Positions 38,689 to 61,347 of a stretch of DNA of 64,000 bases are shown one piece after another. The stretch spans positions 1 to 64,000 of the forward strand of contig JAITNJ010000037.1 in the NCBI GenBank assembly GCA_031290545.1, in the 5' to 3' direction. The position numbers were made by a program, and so were the translations under genes. The notes beneath the pieces are model-generated. The model did not search any database. It was not told where the DNA came from and saw nothing but the letters and a program-made list of their open reading frames with translations. Source of the stretch: Rhodospirillaceae bacterium. Its GTDB lineage: Bacteria > Pseudomonadota > Alphaproteobacteria > Rhodospirillales > Magnetospirillaceae. Numbering within the stretch: the first letter of the stretch is position 1; every line of letters begins with the position of its first letter.

Positions 38689-39588
38689 TCTAACCTCTAT
38701 AATTTATTATAATGATGTGTCTGCCGTATATTTCTTCTATGAAACCAGAAATTGATCCCCTATATATGTAATTAATTCAACTGATTAAATAGAATTAAAT
38801 ACACATCTGTAAACTGTAGATTTAATCAAAGAATGAATCGTCAGTATGTTTTGAAAAAAACAATGACATAGATCATGCGAAAAATGCATATGATAACAAA
38901 TATGATACCCAGAGAAATATGAAAGTCTATTTTTTAATAGCTTCAACACACAAAGAAACTTATTTATTTGTTAATGATATTCGGTAAAATTTTAAATTTT
39001 ATGAGATTAAAATTTATTTTCCTTTCAATGACATATTAACAATTACCTATTGTCGATTATTATTAATATGAATCAGTTTAAATTCTTCAATCATTTACAT
39101 GACGTTAATGTTCATTATTTTTTTTAAACATCGCCAGTAATATATCAGTATAACATTTATTATATTGATATTTACCAAACCATTAAGATCTTTCTAACTT
39201 CAGTTTTAATTGAACAGATAACTATGTCCATTCAATAAAGAAGTACATTTAATTACTATTCATGAATTCTTAGCAAAATAAAATATTGACACCTGAATAA
39301 TTACACTTACGAATATGTTCATTCTATCTTTATGAACAATCATTTTCCATGCAAAAATAATAACAATCTCTTCATCAGAAAAATACCAAATTGTTACATT
39401 CATTCGTTGATAATTTAGATAAATCTATACTAAATTCTTCACGCCTTTTTATGTAAATTTAATATCAGTAAAATCTTTCAGATTTATATATAAAATTCTT
39501 TCAAAAATAGACTTTGGAAAGTTTATGTGCTGATAATCTATTTAAAAAACTAACTTGATATTGCGTTTTCAAATACACAGCAAAAAAC

Positions 39589-39620
39589 AATCTATATTTA
39601 ATTATAATTAAATATAGATT
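39589..39620. terminator. Perfect 32-bp A/T-rich palindrome downstream of rnj; candidate minus-strand terminator
   Basis: AATCTATATTTAATTA/TAATTAAATATAGATT; minus-strand 3' flank GTTTTTTG. Confidence 0.5.
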
Positions 39621-39699
39621 CTAATTGATAATATTATCTTATAATGGTCATTATAATTTCAGATATTTCAAACAGTTTTACTATTTTTGTTAGTTATTT

Positions 39700-41358
39700 T
39701 CAAATACGAACTAAATGTAAATCGATCAATGGTTTTTTGTGATAATTTTTCTTTAAATGTCGGCGTAATGCTATAAGTATCGCTTCTTGTATAAGATTAT
39801 CATCTGACCATTCTAAATTTAACATTTCATCAATAACTTTGTGAATAACACTAACTATCGACTCATACGCTTCTATTTCACATTTATCATCAAACAAGCC
39901 ATGATTAGAAATTTGAGGATCTTTTAATAATTTTCCAAATTTGTTAAGTACAATAGTTGCTACTACGTTACCGTTTTGCATCATTTCATGTCGATCATGC
40001 ATTATAACAGAATCTATATTTATCAGTCTTGTTCCGTCAACAATGAGTCTTCCCGTAGAAACAGTATTAACAATCTTCACATCACCAGGTGCCAACTTCA
40101 ATATTTCACCATTTTGCAAAATTACAGTCTTTGGAACACCACAATTCTTTGCAAGATTAGCATGTTCTTTAAGATGGCGTACTTCACCATGAACTGGCAC
40201 GCTAATTAATGGGCGTATCAAATTATAAAGATGAATCACCTCATCACGCCCAGGATGACCTGATACATGAACTAAATGATCATTTTCAGTTATTACTCTT
40301 ACGCCATTACTTATTAATTTATTTTGCAATTTAAAAATCGACAGCTCATTTCCAGGAATAATACGTGAAGAAAAAATTACCACATCCCCATCGGTGAGTG
40401 ATATATTACGATTAATATTATTAGCAATACGCATAAGAGCGGTACGAGGTTCTCCCTGACTACCTGTGCAAATATAGCTAATTTTGTCAACAGGAAGATC
40501 GACAGCGTCATTTTCAGTCAAAAAAAGTGGAACTTTGGATAAATATCCATTTTCGCGAGCTATCTTGTTTATTCGCCATAAGGAGCGTCCAACCAAAGCA
40601 ACATGTCTATCATTAACTTGAGCGGCTATAGCGATAGACTCAACCCGCGCAACATTACTTGCAAAACAAGTCACTGCGATGCGACTACGAAAATGACTAA
40701 ATAATTCTATAAGACTTTCTCGAACATCATATTCCGAACCTGATGTTTTTTGTTTAAAAACATTTGTTGAGTCACCGACTACAGCCAAGATACCTGAGTC
40801 TCCTAAAAATTGAAGACGTTCTATATCAGCTGGAGAACTAATTATTGGTTTTGGATCAAATTTCCAATCACCAGTATGTAATATACGCCCAAATGGTGTG
40901 TCGATAAGTAGTGAGCTTGATTCTGGAATAGAGTGTGTCTGTGCAATAAATTCAATTATAAATGATCCTAGTTGAACCCTCTCTCCTAATGATACAGTAT
41001 GAATCACAACTTCATTTTCTAATCCAGCTTCTGTCAATTTCATTCGCAATAATGACGTGGCGAAAGGAGACGCATAAACCGGACATTTCAAACGTGACCA
41101 CAAATAAACAACAGCTCCTAAATGATCTTCGTGAGCGTGAGTTAGTATTATACCTAATAAATCACTAGATCGATCAGTAATAAATGATGGATCTGGCATA
41201 AAAATCTCAACACCATGCATACTATCGTCACCGAATGACACTCCCAAATCAACAATTATCCATTTATCTCTACATCCATAGAGATTAAGATTCATTCCAA
41301 TCTCACCTGCTCCACCAAGAGGAAGAAAAACAAGTTCATTGCTATTTCTTATCTTCAT
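39700..41358 (-). CDS. rnj: Ribonuclease J (metallo-beta-lactamase/beta-CASP)
   Basis: LPLGGAGEIGMNLNLYG; LTHAHEDHLGAV; VSGHPGRDE; PVHGEVRHLKEHANLAK. Confidence 0.96.
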   Translation of the reverse strand: MKIRNSNELVFLPLGGAGEIGMNLNLYGCRDKWIIVDLGVSFGDDSMHGVEIFMPDPSFITDRSSDLLGIILTHAHEDHLGAVVYLWSRLKCPVYASPFATSLLRMKLTEAGLENEVVIHTVSLGERVQLGSFIIEFIAQTHSIPESSSLLIDTPFGRILHTGDWKFDPKPIISSPADIERLQFLGDSGILAVVGDSTNVFKQKTSGSEYDVRESLIELFSHFRSRIAVTCFASNVARVESIAIAAQVNDRHVALVGRSLWRINKIARENGYLSKVPLFLTENDAVDLPVDKISYICTGSQGEPRTALMRIANNINRNISLTDGDVVIFSSRIIPGNELSIFKLQNKLISNGVRVITENDHLVHVSGHPGRDEVIHLYNLIRPLISVPVHGEVRHLKEHANLAKNCGVPKTVILQNGEILKLAPGDVKIVNTVSTGRLIVDGTRLINIDSVIMHDRHEMMQNGNVVATIVLNKFGKLLKDPQISNHGLFDDKCEIEAYESIVSVIHKVIDEMLNLEWSDDNLIQEAILIALRRHLKKNYHKKPLIDLHLVRI

Positions 41359-42140
41359 ATGCTACTATTTAATCGATAGATCTTTGAAAGACCGCGAAGA
41401 GTCAAATTTAAGTCAATATGGTCAATAGTACTACTGGCCTTAGTAAACAATGAGGCTAATCCTCCAGTAGCAACCACCGACATTGATGAACCGAATTCAT
41501 ATTTTATTCTCTTTATTATATTTTCGATCAATCCAACGTATCCCCAATAAATACCAGATTGCATTGCTGATTCCGTTGTTTTCCCAATCACAGTTTCTGG
41601 ACGACAAATTGCCACACATGGAAGTTTAGCAGCTGTCGTATGCAGAGTTTGTAGCGACAGATTTATACCAGGAGCAATAACACCACCACAATAATTCCCT
41701 TCAATATCGACAACATCAAATGTTGTAGCTGTACCAAAATCAATCACGATTAATGGGCCAGTATAATCGCTATATGCAGCTACTGAATTTACCAATCGAT
41801 CAGCACCAACCTCATGCGGATAATCAACCAACACTTTGATGCCAAGATCAACATCTTTATCACCAACAACTAACGCTTCACACCCGAAATAGTAAAAACA
41901 CAATTGTTTTAAAGAAAACAACACTGTTGGCACTACTGAAGCGATAATACAAGCTTTAACTTGTTGTCTACTAATATTTTTCATAGATAATAATTGATCT
42001 AGCCAAATACCTAACTCGTCTGCAGTCCGATTTATATCTGTAGAAAAACGCCACACGCCTTTTATTAATTCATTATCAAACAACGCAAAGACTATATTGG
42101 TATTACCAGAGTCAACAGCCAATAACATCTTAATTTCCAT
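41355..42140 (-). CDS. coaX: Type III pantothenate kinase
   Basis: LLAVDSGNTNIVFALFDN; GADRLVNSVAAY; VIDFGTATTFDVVDIEGNYCGGVIAPG. Confidence 0.96.
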   Translation of the reverse strand: MEIKMLLAVDSGNTNIVFALFDNELIKGVWRFSTDINRTADELGIWLDQLLSMKNISRQQVKACIIASVVPTVLFSLKQLCFYYFGCEALVVGDKDVDLGIKVLVDYPHEVGADRLVNSVAAYSDYTGPLIVIDFGTATTFDVVDIEGNYCGGVIAPGINLSLQTLHTTAAKLPCVAICRPETVIGKTTESAMQSGIYWGYVGLIENIIKRIKYEFGSSMSVVATGGLASLFTKASSTIDHIDLNLTLRGLSKIYRLNSSI

Positions 42141-42318: not shown

Positions 42319-43044
42319 TTAAATAAATACATCTCCTGTTGAAATTTTCTTACGACTACCATTGATGCTATCAATCAATAAAGCACCATCATCATCAATC
42401 CCACTAAATATACCATCAAAAATCATCTTATCAGTAATTTTTACAATCATCGAACCACCTATAATATGACGCATATAATATTGATGAATAGAACTAAATC
42501 CATCTTTGCACCAACGTTCATACCATATATCCACATACTTACATAATGTAAATAGAACATCGATTATTGAAACATTACTACCGATATCACGCAAGCAGGT
42601 TGTTGGATAAAATCTCTGTTTTGGCGCATGAATGATATTTATACCAATACCAACAATGACAAAATCAAATTCTTGCTCCAGTAGTATTCCAGAAATCTTA
42701 CATTTATTGCATAGAATGTCATTAGGCCATTTGATCTGAAATTCCGCAGTCGGCACTAACTCGGCTAGTGCATCACGAACGGTGAGTGCCATTACAATGG
42801 CTAATTGTGATATTAGTCCAAACTTTAAACTTTGATACAATAAAAAAGAACAGTGAAGATTGCCAATAGTAGACACCCAAGAACATCCACGACGTCCACG
42901 TCCTGTAACTTGTTCTTCTGCTAATACTATCAACGCGTGACAAGCATCACGTGTAATAATCGCATGTTTTATTTCATCGTTAGTACTGTTCACTCTTTTC
43001 AAAGCAATCAGTCGAAATGGAGCCTGAAGATTAGACAATATCAT
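42319..43044 (-). CDS. birA: Biotin-[acetyl-CoA-carboxylase] ligase
   Basis: ITGRGRRGCSWVS-type VTGRGRRGCSW; IKWPNDILCNKCKISGILLE; start moved to MILSNLQAPFRL because the longer ORF reads through tRNA-Asp. Confidence 0.92.
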   Translation of the reverse strand: MILSNLQAPFRLIALKRVNSTNDEIKHAIITRDACHALIVLAEEQVTGRGRRGCSWVSTIGNLHCSFLLYQSLKFGLISQLAIVMALTVRDALAELVPTAEFQIKWPNDILCNKCKISGILLEQEFDFVIVGIGINIIHAPKQRFYPTTCLRDIGSNVSIIDVLFTLCKYVDIWYERWCKDGFSSIHQYYMRHIIGGSMIVKITDKMIFDGIFSGIDDDGALLIDSINGSRKKISTGDVFI

Positions 43045-43112
43045 TCCGCTAACATGATCATCATCACAACACAAAAATCTATCATAAAAATATTCATAAA
43101 CATGTGATCTAA

Positions 43113-43190
43113 TGGCGGGAGTGACGGGTCTCGAACCCGCGACCTCATGCGTGACAAGCATGTACTCTAAACCAACTGAGCTACACCCCC
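43113..43190 (-). tRNA. tRNA-Asp (anticodon GTC), CCA encoded
   Basis: GGGGGTG-TAGCTCAGTTGGTTTAGAGT-A-CATGC-TTGTCAC-GCATG-AGGTC-GCGGG-TTCGAGA-CCCGT-CACTCCC-G-CCA. Confidence 0.95.
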
Positions 43191-43311: not shown

Positions 43312-43388
43312 TGGTTGGCGGTGTGGGTCTCGAACCCGCGACCTCATGCGTGTAAAGCATGCACTCTAACCAACTGAGCTAACCGCCA
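43312..43388 (-). tRNA. tRNA-Val (anticodon TAC), CCA encoded
   Basis: TGGCGGT-TAGCTCAGTTGGTTAGAGT-G-CATGC-TTTACAC-GCATG-AGGTC-GCGGG-TTCGAGA-CCCAC-ACCGCCA-A-CCA. Confidence 0.93.
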
Positions 43389-43604: not shown

Positions 43605-43889
43605 TTAAAAAATTAAATTTACAGCATCTTTCATAGCCTTACCAGCCTTAAATTTTGGTTGTTTAGATGCAGGAATTAAAATCTTTGCGCCTGTCCTAGG
43701 ATTACGTCCCTCAGACTCAGCACGTTTAAAAACAGAAAAAGTGCCGAATCCTACCAGACGAACTTCTTTTCCATTTTTCAAAGAGTCTGTAATAGAATCT
43801 AAAACAGCACTAACAGCTTTTCCAGCATTGATCTTAGAAAGACCAGCAACACTAGACACCTTAACAACAAGATCATTTTTATTAGTCAT
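43605..43889 (-). CDS. hup: HU-family DNA-binding protein
   Basis: MTNKNDLVVKVSSVAGLSKINAGKAVSAVLDSITDSLKNGKEVRLVGFGTFSVFKRAESEGRNPRTGAKI; start moved to internal Met. Confidence 0.96.
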   Translation of the reverse strand: MTNKNDLVVKVSSVAGLSKINAGKAVSAVLDSITDSLKNGKEVRLVGFGTFSVFKRAESEGRNPRTGAKILIPASKQPKFKAGKAMKDAVNLIF

Positions 43890-44053
43890 TCGATACACCA
43901 TCTTAGTTAAAACACTATTGAGCACAAAATAAACAATTTTAAAAGAGTAAACAAGCGATATTAGATGATACCTAGATCAACTGTCCACAAAAAATGAACA
44001 TATTTTTATACATATGTATGACTTTATATATATTTTATAATATATAATATATA

Positions 44054-46465
44054 TTAGTGAGTTATTATGCTCAATTCATCTACAGCTATTTTTGATTCAT
44101 CAACAACAAGTAATTGCTCATCGTCCCATTCAACAGGAGAAAAAGAGGACGTCAAAGCATTACATAACACCTCATCAACTGTTGCAACTGGCAATATTGT
44201 AAGTCCACGTTTTACGTTATTAGGAATATCAATAAGATCTTTTTCATTATCCTTAGGAATAATAACTATTTTGATTCCACCTCGTAAAGCAGCCAATAAT
44301 TTTTCCTTCAGACCACCTATAGGTAAAACTCTTCCACGTAATGTAATTTCTCCTGTCATAGCAACATCTCTTCGTACAGGAATGCCTGTTAAAATTGAGA
44401 CAATCGCAGTACACATTGTCACACCAGCTGAAGGTCCGTCCTTTGAAATTGCACCTTCTGGCACATGCACGTGAATATCACGCTTTTCAAAAATAGATGG
44501 TTTAATTCCAAAATTAACAGATCGTGATCGTACATATGATCTAGCAGCTGAAATTGATTCCTGCATTACATCACCTAATTTACCAGTATTAGTAAATACA
44601 CCCTTACCTGGCATTGATACAGCTTCGATCGACAATAACTCACCGCCCATTTCAGTCCAAGCTAATCCAGTAACTACACCAGTAAGATTTTCGCATTCCA
44701 TTTCTCCATAATGAAACTGCCGAACACCAGCATATTTTTCCAAATTACGTTTTGTTATTGCTACCTTATTGTTCAAAATTCCACTAATCAAAATCTCTTT
44801 AGTTGACTTACGTGTTAGATTGGCAATTTCACGTTCTAAATTACGCACTCCTGCCTCACGCGTATAATAACGAATTATATCACGAAGAGCTTCATCTGAA
44901 ATCGACCATTCTCCATTTTTAAGTCCAGCCGCCTTAACCTGCTTATCGATCAAATGTCCCTTAGCAATCGCAATTTTTTCATATTCAGTATACCCGGAAA
45001 GACGTACAATCTCCATACGATCTAAAAGAGGTAATGGCATTTTAAGTGTATTAGCCGTAGTAACAAACATCACATCAGAAAGATCATAATCAACCTCGAG
45101 ATAATGATCATTAAAAGAATTATTCTGTTCAGCGTCAAGAACTTCCAGCAGAGCAGATGCAGGATCTCCGTGCCAATCAGAGCCTAATTTATCAATTTCA
45201 TCGAGTAAAAATAGCGGATTTGATGATTTAGCCTTTTTCATCCCTTGAATAATCTTACCAGGCATTGAACCAATATAAGTTCTACGATGACCACGAATTT
45301 CAGATTCATCATGAATACCACCCAAAGAAACACGCACAAAATTACGCCCGATTGCTCTAGCTATCGAACGTCCTAGTGATGTCTTACCAACACCAGGTGG
45401 TCCTACTAGACACATAATAGGCCCCTTAACTTTCACTGTACGTTGTTGCACTGCAATATATTCCAATATACGATCTTTAACCTTTTCTAAACCATAATGA
45501 TCTACATTTAGTATTTTCTCAGCAGATTTGATGTCATGCTGAATCTTAACGCGTTTTCCCCATGGAATTGATAAAATCCAATCCAAATAGTTTCGTACCA
45601 CAGTTGCTTCCGCTGACATCGGACTCATGTTACGAAGCTTTTTAAGCTCACTGGTAACCTTTTCTAAAGCTTCTTTCGATAGATGTGTCTTACTGATACG
45701 TTTTTCAATTTCAGATAACTCATCTTTACCATCTTCACCTTCGCCTAATTCTTTCTGAATGGCTTTTAATTGCTCATTAAGATAATATTCGCGTTGAGTC
45801 TTTTCCATTTGCCATTTAACACGACTACGTATTTTTTTTTCAATCTGAAGAATGCCGATTTCAGATTCCATATAAGAATAAACTTTTTCCAACCGTTCGG
45901 AAGTTTTTTCAAGCTCTAAAAGTTCCTGCTTTTCTGAAAGTTTTAATTGAAGATGCGATGCGACAGTATCGGCTAATTTACTAGGATCTTTAATTTGATT
46001 AATAGAAACAAGTACCTCTGGTGGAATCTTTTTATTAAGCCTAATATATTGCTCACATTGCTTCACTACAGAACGAGACAATGCTTCTAATTCTTGAAGA
46101 TCTCCAAAATTATCATCAATAAAATCAATGTGAACTTGAAAGAATAATTCATTATCTATAAAATCGGTAATACGAGCCCTTTGACCACCCTCTATTAAAA
46201 TCTTTACAGTACCATCTGGTAATTTCAATAATTGCAATACTGTACTTACTGTACCAATTTTGTAAATATCTTCAGCAGTAGGATCATCCTGCGTAGCATC
46301 CTTCTGAGAAACAAGAAGAACTTTCTTATTTTTACTCATTCCACTATCAAGAGCACAAACAGACTTTTCACGACCAACGAATAATGGAACGATCATATGT
46401 GGGAAAACGACGATATCTCGAAGAGGAAGAACAGGAAAAATGTCTTCAAGTAATTGCTCAACCAT
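44054..46465 (-). CDS. lon: ATP-dependent protease Lon
   Basis: [64 protein letters not shown]. Confidence 0.98.
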
Positions 46466-52504: not shown

Positions 52505-53767
52505 GTGAAAATACTTATACTAGGAGCTGGAGTAATTGGAGTAACTTCAGCTTGGTATCTTGCTAAAGCTGGACATGATGTAGTAGTAATCGATCGTCAG
52601 CCATCAGCCGGACTAGAAACTAGTTTTGCTAATGGTGGACAGATTTCTCCATGTCACGCAGAACCTTGGGCTAATTCTTCAACACTGAAAACTGCTTTAA
52701 AGTGGATAGGTCGTAAAGATGCACCTTTATTTTTTCATTTTGATCACCTAGATCCATCTATATTGATTTGGAGCATTCGCTTTTTATTAAACTGCACGTC
52801 ATTTCGTTCTCGCATCAATACAGAACGGATTTTACGCATTGCCCTATATTCACTATCTTCCCTGCAAAGCTTACGTACTGAAACAGGAATCAATTATGAT
52901 CAAAAAACCACCGGTATACTGCATATTTATCGAAATAAAAAAAGCTTTAACCACGCAATAACTGTAGCTGAAATGATGAATAAAATTGGTCTTCTTAGAG
53001 AAATTAAAAACGCTGACGAAGTCTTATCTATAGAACCAGCATTAGTTTCCATTCATAAAGAACTTGCAGGAGGTATCTTTACAGCTAGCGATGAATCTGG
53101 AGATGCGTATAAATTCACAAAAAACCTAGCAAATTTATGTGTTAAAAGAGGAGTAATATTTCATTATAATACAACAATTATAGGATTAGAAATGACTGCT
53201 GGTCAATTAGTCTCAGTAGCAACTAATAATGGTAGAATGAAGTCTGATGCATTCGTTATTGCCTTAGGTAGTTGTAGCCCTAGTATAGCAAGACAGATTG
53301 GTATTAATCTACCGATCTGTCCTGCAAAAGGCTATTCTACTACAATTGTTATTACAGATCCAAATAAAGCACCATCAGTCGCTATTACAGATGATGAGAA
53401 TAAATTGGTTTATAGCCGTTTGGGAAATCGTCTTCGTTGTGCAGGAACAGCTGAACTGGCTACCTGGAATCTTGAAATAAACCCAACCCGCGTTAATATT
53501 GTAACAGCAAAATCTCGAACGCTATTTCCAGACATCGGAGATTTCGACAATCCACAGATCTGGTGTGGTTTACGACCAGTCACACCAGACTCAATACCAA
53601 TTATCGGAAGAACTCAAATTTCCAATCTATTTCTTAATACCGGACATGGCACTCTTGGTTGGACAATGAGCTGTGGATCAGGACGTTTACTTACAGATTT
53701 AATCTCTAATCGTCTACCAGATATCGATATGAGCGGACTCAGTTTGAATCGTTTTAGAATAATCTGA
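52505..53767 (+). CDS. dadA: D-amino-acid dehydrogenase (FAD-dependent)
   Basis: MKILILGAGVIGVTSAWYLAKAGHDVVVIDRQ; ETSFANGGQISPCHAEPWA; GHGTLGWTMSCGSGRLL. Confidence 0.94.
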   Translation: MKILILGAGVIGVTSAWYLAKAGHDVVVIDRQPSAGLETSFANGGQISPCHAEPWANSSTLKTALKWIGRKDAPLFFHFDHLDPSILIWSIRFLLNCTSFRSRINTERILRIALYSLSSLQSLRTETGINYDQKTTGILHIYRNKKSFNHAITVAEMMNKIGLLREIKNADEVLSIEPALVSIHKELAGGIFTASDESGDAYKFTKNLANLCVKRGVIFHYNTTIIGLEMTAGQLVSVATNNGRMKSDAFVIALGSCSPSIARQIGINLPICPAKGYSTTIVITDPNKAPSVAITDDENKLVYSRLGNRLRCAGTAELATWNLEINPTRVNIVTAKSRTLFPDIGDFDNPQIWCGLRPVTPDSIPIIGRTQISNLFLNTGHGTLGWTMSCGSGRLLTDLISNRLPDIDMSGLSLNRFRII

Positions 53768-56795: not shown

Positions 56796-58595
56796 TTATA
56801 TTGGTTGTGTTGCTAAAATTAACCACTGAGCCGTTATTGTATCCAATAACGGCATTAATTCTTCTCTTATTCTTGCATGATAGGAATTGATCCAATCGAT
56901 TTTTGTGGCAGAGAGCAAGCTTTTATCAATTAACGTTAGATCGATCGGTACTAAGGTTAGTATCTCGAATTTAAAATATTCACGATCATCTTGATTGATC
57001 CAAGAACACACTATCTGTAAGTTTTCAATCCGAATTCCGTATGAACCTGACTTGTAATATCCAGGTTCATTAGAAACGACCATGCCAGGTGACAGAGCTT
57101 GTATATTAGAATTCTTAGAAATACAATGCGGACCCTCATGAACTCCTAAATAACTACCAACACCATGACCAGTGCCATGATCATAGTCAAGCCCATCTGC
57201 CCACAAAAATTGTCTAGCCAAGCTATCCAATTGATTACCAGTGGTTCCTTTCGGAAATCGAGCCATAGCCAAAGATATATGTCCGTTAAGAATTTGAGTA
57301 AACCTGCGACATTCTTCCGCTCCGATTGCGCCGCCTAAAGCTATAGTTCTTGTAACATCAGTAGTACCATCTAGATATTGCCCACCTGAATCAAAAAGAT
57401 ATAACTGTCCCTTAACTAGAGGACGATTACTAAGCTCAGTAACATGATAATGCGGTAAAGCAGAATTTGATCCAGTTGCAGAAATTGTTTGAAAACTTGG
57501 ATATTGATAATACAAACCACCAACGCGATATTTATCTAGCATTTCAGCTGCAGATAATTCAGTCACCTCACTGTTTTCAATCGTCTCAGATAACCATGCT
57601 AAAAATCTTACCAAAACAGCGCCATCTCGTCTATGCGCATGTCGCATTCCATCTAATTCTATAGAATTTTTACAAGCACGTGGTAGTGCACATAGATCGA
57701 GACCATATTCAATATGAACACGCGCCTTAATAAGACGATTAATAATCCAAAACGGAGTCGTATTTGGATCCAAATATACGCATTTATCATTCAGACGATC
57801 GATAGATTTACCAAAATTATCAGGATCTATAATATGAACCGTTTTCCCCAAATAACTTATAGTTTCTGGCGTTAATTTCTTTGAATCAATGAACAGATCT
57901 ACCGAACCATCTTTATACATAAAAGCAAAAGATAATAACACTGGTGTAAATGGAACATCACCTCCACGCAAATTTAATAACCAAGCTACAGATTCTGGTG
58001 CTGATAAAATAGTTACATCAAATTTATTTAATATCATGATATTTGATAGATCAGCACGCTTTTTTATAGAACTTCTACCTGAAAAATTTATAGGATGAAA
58101 AATTACTGGAGCTTCTTTAAATGATGGACGATCTTTCCAAACTGTGTCAATTGGATTTATATCACAAGAAATCAATTGAGCCCCTACAATATTACAAGCT
58201 TGTCTTAATTGTTTTATGTTATTAAGAGTATGCAACCAAGGGTCATAACCAAAATTAACACCATATGGCAATACAGCAGCCAACCATTGATGTGGTGATT
58301 GTTCTGTTATATTAATCTGTTCAAACAATTCAGGATCTACTTCAATTGATGCCTGTTGTATATATCGTCCATCAACAAATAAAGCACTTCGCTTTAACAG
58401 AACGATTGCAATACCATCAGATCCGCTGAATCCACTAATCCATTTTAGGCGAAACGCTGATGATGGAACATAATTTTTCTGATATTTATCACTATATGGA
58501 ATACAGAAACCATATAATCCACGTCGAACCAATTCTTTACGTAAAAAAATAATATTAGCAGCAATACCGCTCTTATTTATAATAGTCATTGTCAT
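56796..58595 (-). CDS. pepP: Xaa-Pro aminopeptidase (M24 family, three-domain)
   Basis: FDSGGQYLDGTTDVTRTI; YDHGTGHGVGSYLGVHEGP; VVSNEPGYYKSGSYGIRIEN. Confidence 0.94.
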   Translation of the reverse strand: MTMTIINKSGIAANIIFLRKELVRRGLYGFCIPYSDKYQKNYVPSSAFRLKWISGFSGSDGIAIVLLKRSALFVDGRYIQQASIEVDPELFEQINITEQSPHQWLAAVLPYGVNFGYDPWLHTLNNIKQLRQACNIVGAQLISCDINPIDTVWKDRPSFKEAPVIFHPINFSGRSSIKKRADLSNIMILNKFDVTILSAPESVAWLLNLRGGDVPFTPVLLSFAFMYKDGSVDLFIDSKKLTPETISYLGKTVHIIDPDNFGKSIDRLNDKCVYLDPNTTPFWIINRLIKARVHIEYGLDLCALPRACKNSIELDGMRHAHRRDGAVLVRFLAWLSETIENSEVTELSAAEMLDKYRVGGLYYQYPSFQTISATGSNSALPHYHVTELSNRPLVKGQLYLFDSGGQYLDGTTDVTRTIALGGAIGAEECRRFTQILNGHISLAMARFPKGTTGNQLDSLARQFLWADGLDYDHGTGHGVGSYLGVHEGPHCISKNSNIQALSPGMVVSNEPGYYKSGSYGIRIENLQIVCSWINQDDREYFKFEILTLVPIDLTLIDKSLLSATKIDWINSYHARIREELMPLLDTITAQWLILATQPI

Positions 58596-59706
58596 ACATT
58601 TAATACTTATTGTAATAATTTGTATTGAATAATATTTTTAGAAAAAATTAAACCGATTGAATTATTAATAAATAATTATTTACATAAACGAGTTTGTATT
58701 GACAGTGTAAAAATAAGAAATTCAAAATATTGAATACGAAATCGTCCAAATAATGGCAAAAAATGTAACTGATGAGTAGTTAAAATGAAACGTCTTGTTG
58801 AATTAACAAATCAAATAACATTGCAATAATGTAATCAAAAAAGATGAGTGATGTTTAAGATCAGTAAATATAGTAACAAAATCAACTTGCGATAAAATTG
58901 ATACATTAAATCATGTTGACTATGCTTAGCTAATATTTTGCTCGACGACACATTACTATGAAATACTTAAATAAATAACGATACTACAATTATTTCTAGC
59001 ATTTTTATTCACCAATACTGAACTATATCAACATCAGAAGTTTAACGTGAGAAACTGCATATTTAGAAATACCTATATAGCAACATCCTAAATCTAACGA
59101 TCTGAAAATGACGTAATCAAAATCAATCAAATACGATAGGACAAAAAGAGTAATGTAGCATGTTTTCATGAATAAATGCGTTACCATCATAGATTAACAA
59201 TGAAATTTTGTTATTAATCAAAATCCTTTCAAATGTGAACTATGAGCAAAAACGTCAGCCTATAACTTAGTTGAAAATTGAGTAAATTATCAAAAAACAT
59301 TACTTATCTTGGATCAAATCCATACTGAGAGTTGGAATTTCAAATCCATACGTATAGATACAATGCTAAGTGTATTCTCAATTGAATTACATTCAATTGA
59401 AGTCTTAAAAACCACAGAGAAATCAAACAAATACGTTCGTCACTTTCATTTGATTTTTGATAATTAATAAAACGAGAGATGCATCATCATAAAATCGAAC
59501 ACGAACTCAAATTATCTTAATAGCAAATCAACTGTGCAGTAATAAAAATTAAAAACCAAATTGGTTTCATTTTAATTCTTTCAAAATTTATGATGATAAT
59601 TGGATAGTCCTCGAAAAATTTTAGAAAATAAGTTTCATAACATTAAAATTTAACTTATTCTTTGAATAATAATTTCTTATCAATATCAATTGAATTTTTA
59701 TTGTTA

Positions 59707-61347
59707 TTATCTGCAAAAATATTGATTTAGCAATATTTTTGAATAAAAATCATTGCCCTTATCATCAATAACTATAAAAACATGAAAATCCTTAACTTCA
59801 ATACGCCATATAGCCTCCATACCAAGCTCAGGATATTCTAAAATATCAACTTTATTTATATGATATTTAGATAGACTAGCAGCAGCACCACCAACTGATC
59901 CTAGGTAAAATCCGCCGTATATCTTACAAGCTTCAATAACTGCTCTGGAGCGATTTCCCTTAGCAATCATTACCATACTACATCCATATGATTGAAACAA
60001 ACTAACATAACTATCCATTCTCCCAGCAGTCGTTGGCCCGAAAGATCCAGACTTATAACCGTCAGGAGTTTTTGCTGGACCTGCATAATAGATTGGATGA
60101 TCTTTAAAATATTGTGGCAAATTTTCACCACGATCTATGCGTTCTTTAAGTTTTGCATGCGCTATGTCGCGGGCAACTATCATTGGACCGTTAAGCATTA
60201 CACGTGTTCCAACTGGATATTTGCTCAAGATCTCGCGAATCTGATTCATTGATTGATTCAAATCAATACATACACCATTATCAAATAGTTTTTTTTGATC
60301 AATATCCGGTAAATACCGTGCTGGGTCTTTTTCTAAGTTCTCAAGATAAATACCATCACTAATAATCTTTCCTTTAATCTGACGATCAGCTGAACAAGAA
60401 ACGCCAATACCGACAGGACAAGATGCTCCATGGCGTGGCAATCTAATAACGCGAACATCATGACAGAAATATTTACCACCAAATTGTGCACCAATTCCTA
60501 TATTTTGCACAATTTGGTGAATTGTCATTTCAACATTCAAATCACGAAAAGCATGACCATATCTACCACCACTGGTCGGCAAATTATCAAGATATTTAGC
60601 TGAGGCCAATTTCACAGTTTTTAAATTCATTTCAACTGAAATACCGCCTATAACAATAGCTAGATGATACGGAGGACAAGCAGATGTGCCTAATGTCCTA
60701 ATTTGTGTCTCACAAAATTTTATAAGAGATTCTGGATTTAGTAACTCTTTAGTTTGTTGATAAAGAAATGTTTTGTTAGCAGAACCACCACCTTTGGCCA
60801 TGAATAAAAATTCATACATACCTCCATCAACTGCATAAAGATCAATCTGTGCTGGAAGATTGTTTTCTGTATTTACTTCTTCATACATATCTACAGGGGA
60901 AACCTGGCTATATCGCAAATTAAGTTCAGTATAGGCTTTAGCCACGCCACTTGTCAGAGCTATTTCATCGTCACACCCTGTCCAAATTTGTTGTCCTTTC
61001 TTACCCATGATAATCGCACTTCCAGTATCTTGACACATCGGAAGTACCATACCAGCAGCAATATTAGCATTCATTAATAAATCGAGAGCGACAAATTTAT
61101 CGTTCTCTGATGCCTCAGAATCATCAAGAATAGAACGCAATTGCTGAAGATGTTTTGATCTCAAAAGATGAGAAATTTGACGAAATGCTTCATAACTAAG
61201 TTTAGTTAATACAATAGGAGCAACAGTAATTAATTTTTTATCACCAATCGAAATAACATCAATGTTTTCTGCTGAAATTTTCGTGTAAGAGGTATCATCT
61301 TCTGAAAGCGAAAATATGTTAGTGAAATTCACAAAATCTTCCATCAA
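59707..61347 (-). CDS. fumA: Fumarate hydratase, class I
   Basis: [44 protein letters not shown]; 546 aa. Confidence 0.94.

Follow-up and report, generated by a model that had tools for sequence, protein, structure and literature searches.

On the minus strand of the window, by which we mean the whole stretch of DNA analysed (64,000 nucleotides, positions 1–64000 of contig C16), the genes lon, hup, tRNA-Val, tRNA-Asp, birA, coaX and rnj follow one another in this order (Table 1). The tRNA-Asp gene and the start of birA are exactly 68 bp apart, which agrees with the spacing of about 68 bp given in the initial annotation and with its coordinates. The product of birA scored 132 bits against TIGR00121 (cut-off 83), and its start was placed at the ATG at 43044, where BLAST homology with the BirA proteins of relatives begins as well. 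No similarity to nuo genes was found in the 68-bp gap, and no nuo remnant was detected in the window, where a search with 42 frames of one relative as queries returned chance matches alone (E ≥ 0.26). The flanks thus keep their order without a nuo fragment between them, as had been proposed. Elsewhere in the window, the intervals between rnj and proS (38704–39702) and between the fumarase gene and the gene at 56796–58595 (58638–59709) are each about 1 kb long and non-coding, and are possible sites of decayed genes.

Table 1. Coordinates of the junction, its flanking genes and two metabolic genes in the window.
Feature	Position	Strand	Evidence or remark
Junction where relatives hold a 14-kb nuo operon	43045–43112	-	68 bp
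tRNA-Asp (GTC), upstream flank of the lost operon	43113–43190	-	ARAGORN
tRNA-Val (TAC)	43312–43388	-	ARAGORN
hup (HU-type DNA-binding protein), conserved upstream flank	43605–43925	-	66–80% identical matches in relatives
lon protease, conserved upstream flank	44054–46465	-	72–78% identical matches in relatives
birA (biotin-protein ligase), downstream flank	42319–43044	-	TIGR00121, PF03099, tblastn start point
coaX (type III pantothenate kinase), downstream flank	41355–42140	-	60–72% identical matches adjoining birA of relatives
rnj (ribonuclease J), downstream flank	39700–41358	-	50–69% identical matches in relatives
dadA, D-amino acid dehydrogenase	52505–53767	+	NF001933, 499 bits (cut-off 383)
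Class I (Fe-S) fumarate hydratase	59707–61347	-	NF011920, 791 bits (below cut-off 1094); TIGR00723, 184 bits (above cut-off 145)

For comparison, the loci around the NuoD gene were fetched from 20 relatives, in which similarity to HyfF, HyfI and HyfG served to identify the NuoL/M/N-, NuoB- and NuoD-like genes. Directly before nuoA lies tRNA-Asp in 16 of the 20 relatives and tRNA-Val in the other four. After nuoN, birA is found in all loci that reach far enough (17 of 17; the remaining three stop before birA), with coaX and rnj mostly next in line, and lon and hup are located upstream wherever the fetched stretch includes them. The order lon-hup-tRNA-nuo-birA-coaX-rnj that had been ascribed to many Alphaproteobacteria is thus seen in these relatives, and nuo is kept there. 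The distance from tRNA-Asp to birA amounts to 14,264–14,502 bp in the 13 relatives that show both ends, compared with 68 bp here. From the conserved order and this interval of 14.3–14.5 kb, we conclude that the whole operon was deleted between flanks that were retained. A genome of the same family (G007, listed as 97% complete) yielded no PF00346 match, which may reflect either a gap in the assembly or a further case of nuo loss.

The genome comprises 946,554 bp in 49 contigs, with a listed completeness of 100% and a listed contamination of 0%. Neither part of the NADH-oxidising module of complex I was detected in it: no PF01512 (Complex1_51K) match indicative of NuoF was obtained in the genome at E ≤ 1, and no PF00384 match indicative of NuoG was found in a genome search that took in all molybdopterin enzymes. 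The PF00361 (NuoL/M/N family) matches consisted of HyfB and HyfF only, and the single PF00346 (NuoD family) match, with 118 bits compared with 375–437 bits for the canonical NuoD of relatives, was HyfG on contig C21. Since relatives keep nuo at the locus and no canonical NuoD, NuoF, NuoG or NuoL/M/N is present elsewhere in the genome, the clean loss that had been suggested is real: nuo has almost certainly disappeared from both its ancestral locus and the genome. Absences of single genes could be gaps because the assembly is in 49 contigs, and such an assembly could be incomplete; that complex I persists in the cell, with nuo relocated or on an unassembled contig, is nevertheless highly improbable, as the junction sits within a 126.5-kb contig, which would require nuo to have been both relocated and overlooked, canonical matches are lacking for six of the 14 subunits (D, F, G, L, M and N), the listed completeness is full, and COX1 and the bd oxidase are missing too.

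We attribute the deletion to genome reduction in a symbiont-like, anaerobic bacterium that belongs to the lineage of the soil bacterium Telmatospirillum; such a loss is ordinary for a reduced genome. Four genomes of the same genus are listed with sizes of 5.7–7.1 Mb, compared with 0.95 Mb here, and the GC content is 33–35%, compared with 60–64% in Telmatospirillum loci. The small size and low GC content, on which the term symbiont rests, suggest a long-term host-associated life. A similarly reduced genome (827 kb) has been reported for the alphaproteobacterial symbiont of an anaerobic ciliate, Ca. Hydrogenosomobacter endosymbioticus (PMC8852324), but this organism is a relative of Holospora and does not belong to the Telmatospirillum lineage.

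The search for respiratory enzymes covered NDH-2, Nqr, Rnf, haem-copper and bd oxidases, PFOR and molybdopterin enzymes. The PF07992 (Pyr_redox_2) proteins of the genome are TrxB, an NfnAB-like fusion, MnmG, FixC, DadA, GlpB and FrdA, with no NDH-2 among them. Family searches of the genome revealed neither Rnf nor Nqr, and no haem-copper oxidase (COX1), bd oxidase, PFOR or molybdopterin enzyme was found in the genome. The dependence on ndh or Nqr envisaged in the initial annotation is therefore not supported, and the genome points to a chain that uses fumarate.

Contig C2 encodes EtfBA followed by FrdC, FrdA and FrdB, as well as an F-type ATP synthase operon. FrdB scored 407 bits against NF010071 (cut-off 264). 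The three components of a menaquinol:fumarate reductase, namely FrdA, FrdB and the cytochrome b FrdC, are encoded together, although FrdC, with 166 bits against NF010072, stays below the cut-off of 187. FrdC, FrdA and FrdB also make up the menaquinol:fumarate reductase of the Wolinella/Desulfovibrio type, from which nothing tested sets the present enzyme apart. The quinone is probably menaquinone and not ubiquinone, since MenA (TIGR00751, 164 bits) is the only UbiA-family match in the genome. We infer the direction, towards fumarate reduction, from the use of menaquinone and the lack of haem-copper and bd oxidases, and an anaerobic chain ending at fumarate is likely. In such a chain, menaquinol would be reoxidised by fumarate reductase, and the class I fumarase would supply the fumarate. 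GlpA, GlpB and GlpC are also encoded, GlpA and GlpC scoring above their cut-offs, and DadA is a probable donor of electrons to quinone; GlpABC and DadA would both feed electrons into the fumarate chain.

FixA, FixB, FixC and the ferredoxin-like FixX are encoded adjacently and intact on contig C27 (L164:10300–13921). They correspond in this to the electron-bifurcating NADH:quinone/ferredoxin complex FixABCX of Azotobacter and Rhodospirillum (PMC5861303), and the Azotobacter complex is described there as NADH-dependent and as reducing ubiquinone and ferredoxin together. If the bifurcation indicated by the Azotobacter work cited in PMC5861303 applies here, FixABCX would oxidise NADH and divide the electrons equally between menaquinone and ferredoxin. 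We consider FixABCX to be probably the main entry point of NADH electrons. As an acceptor for FixABCX, menaquinone provides a smaller driving force than ubiquinone. FixABCX normally serves nitrogenase, which was considered because FixABCX is present and was then rejected, as the sole NifH-family match in the genome is ParA, followed by a ParB-like frame. The retention of FixABCX in a genome in which nitrogenase was not found is a notable case.

The only complex-I-superfamily enzyme of the genome is encoded by a hydrogenase-4-like cluster, hyfBCEFGI. One end of contig C5 holds hyfB and an initial portion of hyfC, and the end of C21 holds the rest of hyfC together with hyfE, hyfF, hyfG and hyfI; because hyfC is split between these ends, the operon is considered to be continuous across the contig break. 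It is preceded by tyrA and followed by rmuC, as in relative G017, and in relatives G013 and G023 rmuC also comes after the operon, with tyrA beyond it. The hyf proteins are 68–87% identical to those of T. siberiense, with HyfG at 68% and HyfE at 87%, and HyfG falls within a clade that includes T. siberiense and two further sequences of the Telmatospirillum group (support 99/94). The membrane subunits HyfB and HyfF passed the hydrogenase-4 cut-offs with 753 bits each (cut-offs 667 and 533, respectively).

Among solved structures, HyfG matched best with HycE of the E. coli formate hydrogenlyase (PDB 7z0s, 2.2e-75), and we regard its predicted fold as settled by the matches to 7z0s and 6cfw. At the Ni-ligand positions of HycE (7z0s), HyfG carries S206 and S209 in the N-terminal pair and S494 and G497 in the C-terminal pair, so that all four NiFe-site cysteines of a group 4 [NiFe] hydrogenase are replaced. 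These cysteines are also gone in 80 aligned HyfG homologues; S206, G207, D208, the residues C487, N488, K489 and S490 near the C-terminus, and G497 are invariant in 81 of 81 aligned HyfG sequences. HyfG has no equivalent of the quinone tyrosine of complex I (RISGDS, compared with RLDYVS in NuoD). The NuoB-like HyfI (PF01058) keeps the proximal 4Fe-4S cysteines in CxGC, GDC and GCPP, as read from its translation. The cluster thus combines a hydrogenase-like large subunit without Ni/Fe-coordinating residues with antiporter-like subunits. Energy-converting hydrogenase-related (Ehr) complexes, which consist of group-4-hydrogenase-like and Mrp-antiporter-like subunits and have no Ni-coordinating residues (PMC6349859), have the same make-up. 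Since the large subunit is devoid of all four Ni-ligating cysteines, the product of hyfBCEFGI is, as judged from sequence, neither a hydrogenase nor complex I, and is classified as an Ehr-type complex inherited within Telmatospirillum.

The complex differs from the E. coli formate hydrogenlyase and hydrogenase 4 in its replaced Ni ligands, in an operon without HyfA, HyfD and HyfH, and in the lack of a formate dehydrogenase. In the Ehr examples of PMC6349859, the complex is associated with formate dehydrogenase and with NuoE/F-like genes, whereas no partner gene accompanies the operon here and molybdopterin enzymes are absent from the genome. No gene for a NuoI-like or HyfA/HyfH ferredoxin-docking subunit was found in the hyf operon, either here or in T. 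siberiense. In 80 loci compared by all-against-all BLAST with coarse ORF calling, no recurring redox-partner family was detected beside the operon. The commonest non-hyf neighbour families occur in at most 24 of the 80 loci, overlapping frames aside, in a survey that is coarse because GC-rich genomes yield many false frames; the most frequent one, as judged by eye, resembles a short regulator of the XRE type encoded directly upstream of hyfB. At least 567 Ehr relatives were confirmed, and these are widespread in proteobacteria. The HyfG of one metagenome-assembled genome contig labelled 'Phycisphaerales' (JACSSB010000215.1) groups with that of Ca. Competibacter phosphatis (100/98), and this contig is probably mis-binned or mislabelled.

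We estimate a probability of roughly 55% for the picture as a whole, in which the nuo deletion is accompanied by an anaerobic chain comprising FixABCX, menaquinone, fumarate reductase and Ehr; the genes are present, and the electron routes are deduced from gene content. In this chain, Ehr would pass electrons from ferredoxin to menaquinone and thereby pump protons for the ATP synthase, and the NfnAB-like enzyme would use reduced ferredoxin to make NADPH. The step assigned to Ehr is the weakest, because no docking subunit or redox partner gene is encoded with hyf here or in T. siberiense, and a forward-running ferredoxin:menaquinone pump is put forward tentatively, at less than even odds. More speculatively still, the function of complex I might have been split in an oxygen-free chain ending at fumarate, with FixABCX taking over the oxidation of NADH and an orphan Ehr acting as ferredoxin:menaquinone proton pump.

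Alternatively, Ehr may not be an enzyme of ferredoxin and quinone at all, and could catalyse another redox reaction or redox-free transport while energy is conserved mostly by fermentation. An active site devoid of both Ni ligands and the complex I quinone tyrosine would fit this explanation, as would the lack of a NuoI-like subunit and of a conserved redox partner gene nearby. However, the NuoB-like subunit retains its cluster cysteines, and all six subunits are intact and well conserved although complex I and the oxidases were discarded, and we regard this explanation as doubtful. It is unlikely that Ehr runs in reverse, with a proton gradient from ATP hydrolysis or another pump driving menaquinol electrons derived from GlpABC and DadA towards ferredoxin for NfnAB and biosynthesis. 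Such a direction would agree with the presence of several dehydrogenases that reduce quinone, with the small number of ferredoxin sources, PFOR being absent, and with the NfnAB-like enzyme as a would-be user of ferredoxin; FixABCX, however, would already provide reduced ferredoxin, and neither a proton-pumping oxidase nor complex I remains to power transport in reverse.

The set of enzymes that replaces complex I in the proposed anaerobic chain with FixABCX and Ehr is unusual, as Ehr is the sole surviving relative of complex I and is combined with FixABCX, menaquinone and fumarate reductase. A literature search for a known Telmatospirillum-like endosymbiont or for such a respiratory chain found none, and the announcement of Ca. 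Hydrogenosomobacter endosymbioticus (PMC8852324) describes no chain of this kind. The retention of all six Ehr subunits in a genome that has shed complex I and the oxidases restricts the role of Ehr to anaerobic energy conservation, and the reduced genome offers a minimal setting in which the function of Ehr can be tested.

Genes for the synthesis of tryptophan, tyrosine, arginine, branched-chain amino acids and pantothenate appear to be kept on contigs C5, C14, C16 and C27, as seen by eye in the translations. Beside the hyf cluster on C21 (L003:307–8651), genes for uronic acid catabolism are retained, including those for glucuronate isomerase, KDPG aldolase and sugar kinases, which hints at a diet supplied by a host.
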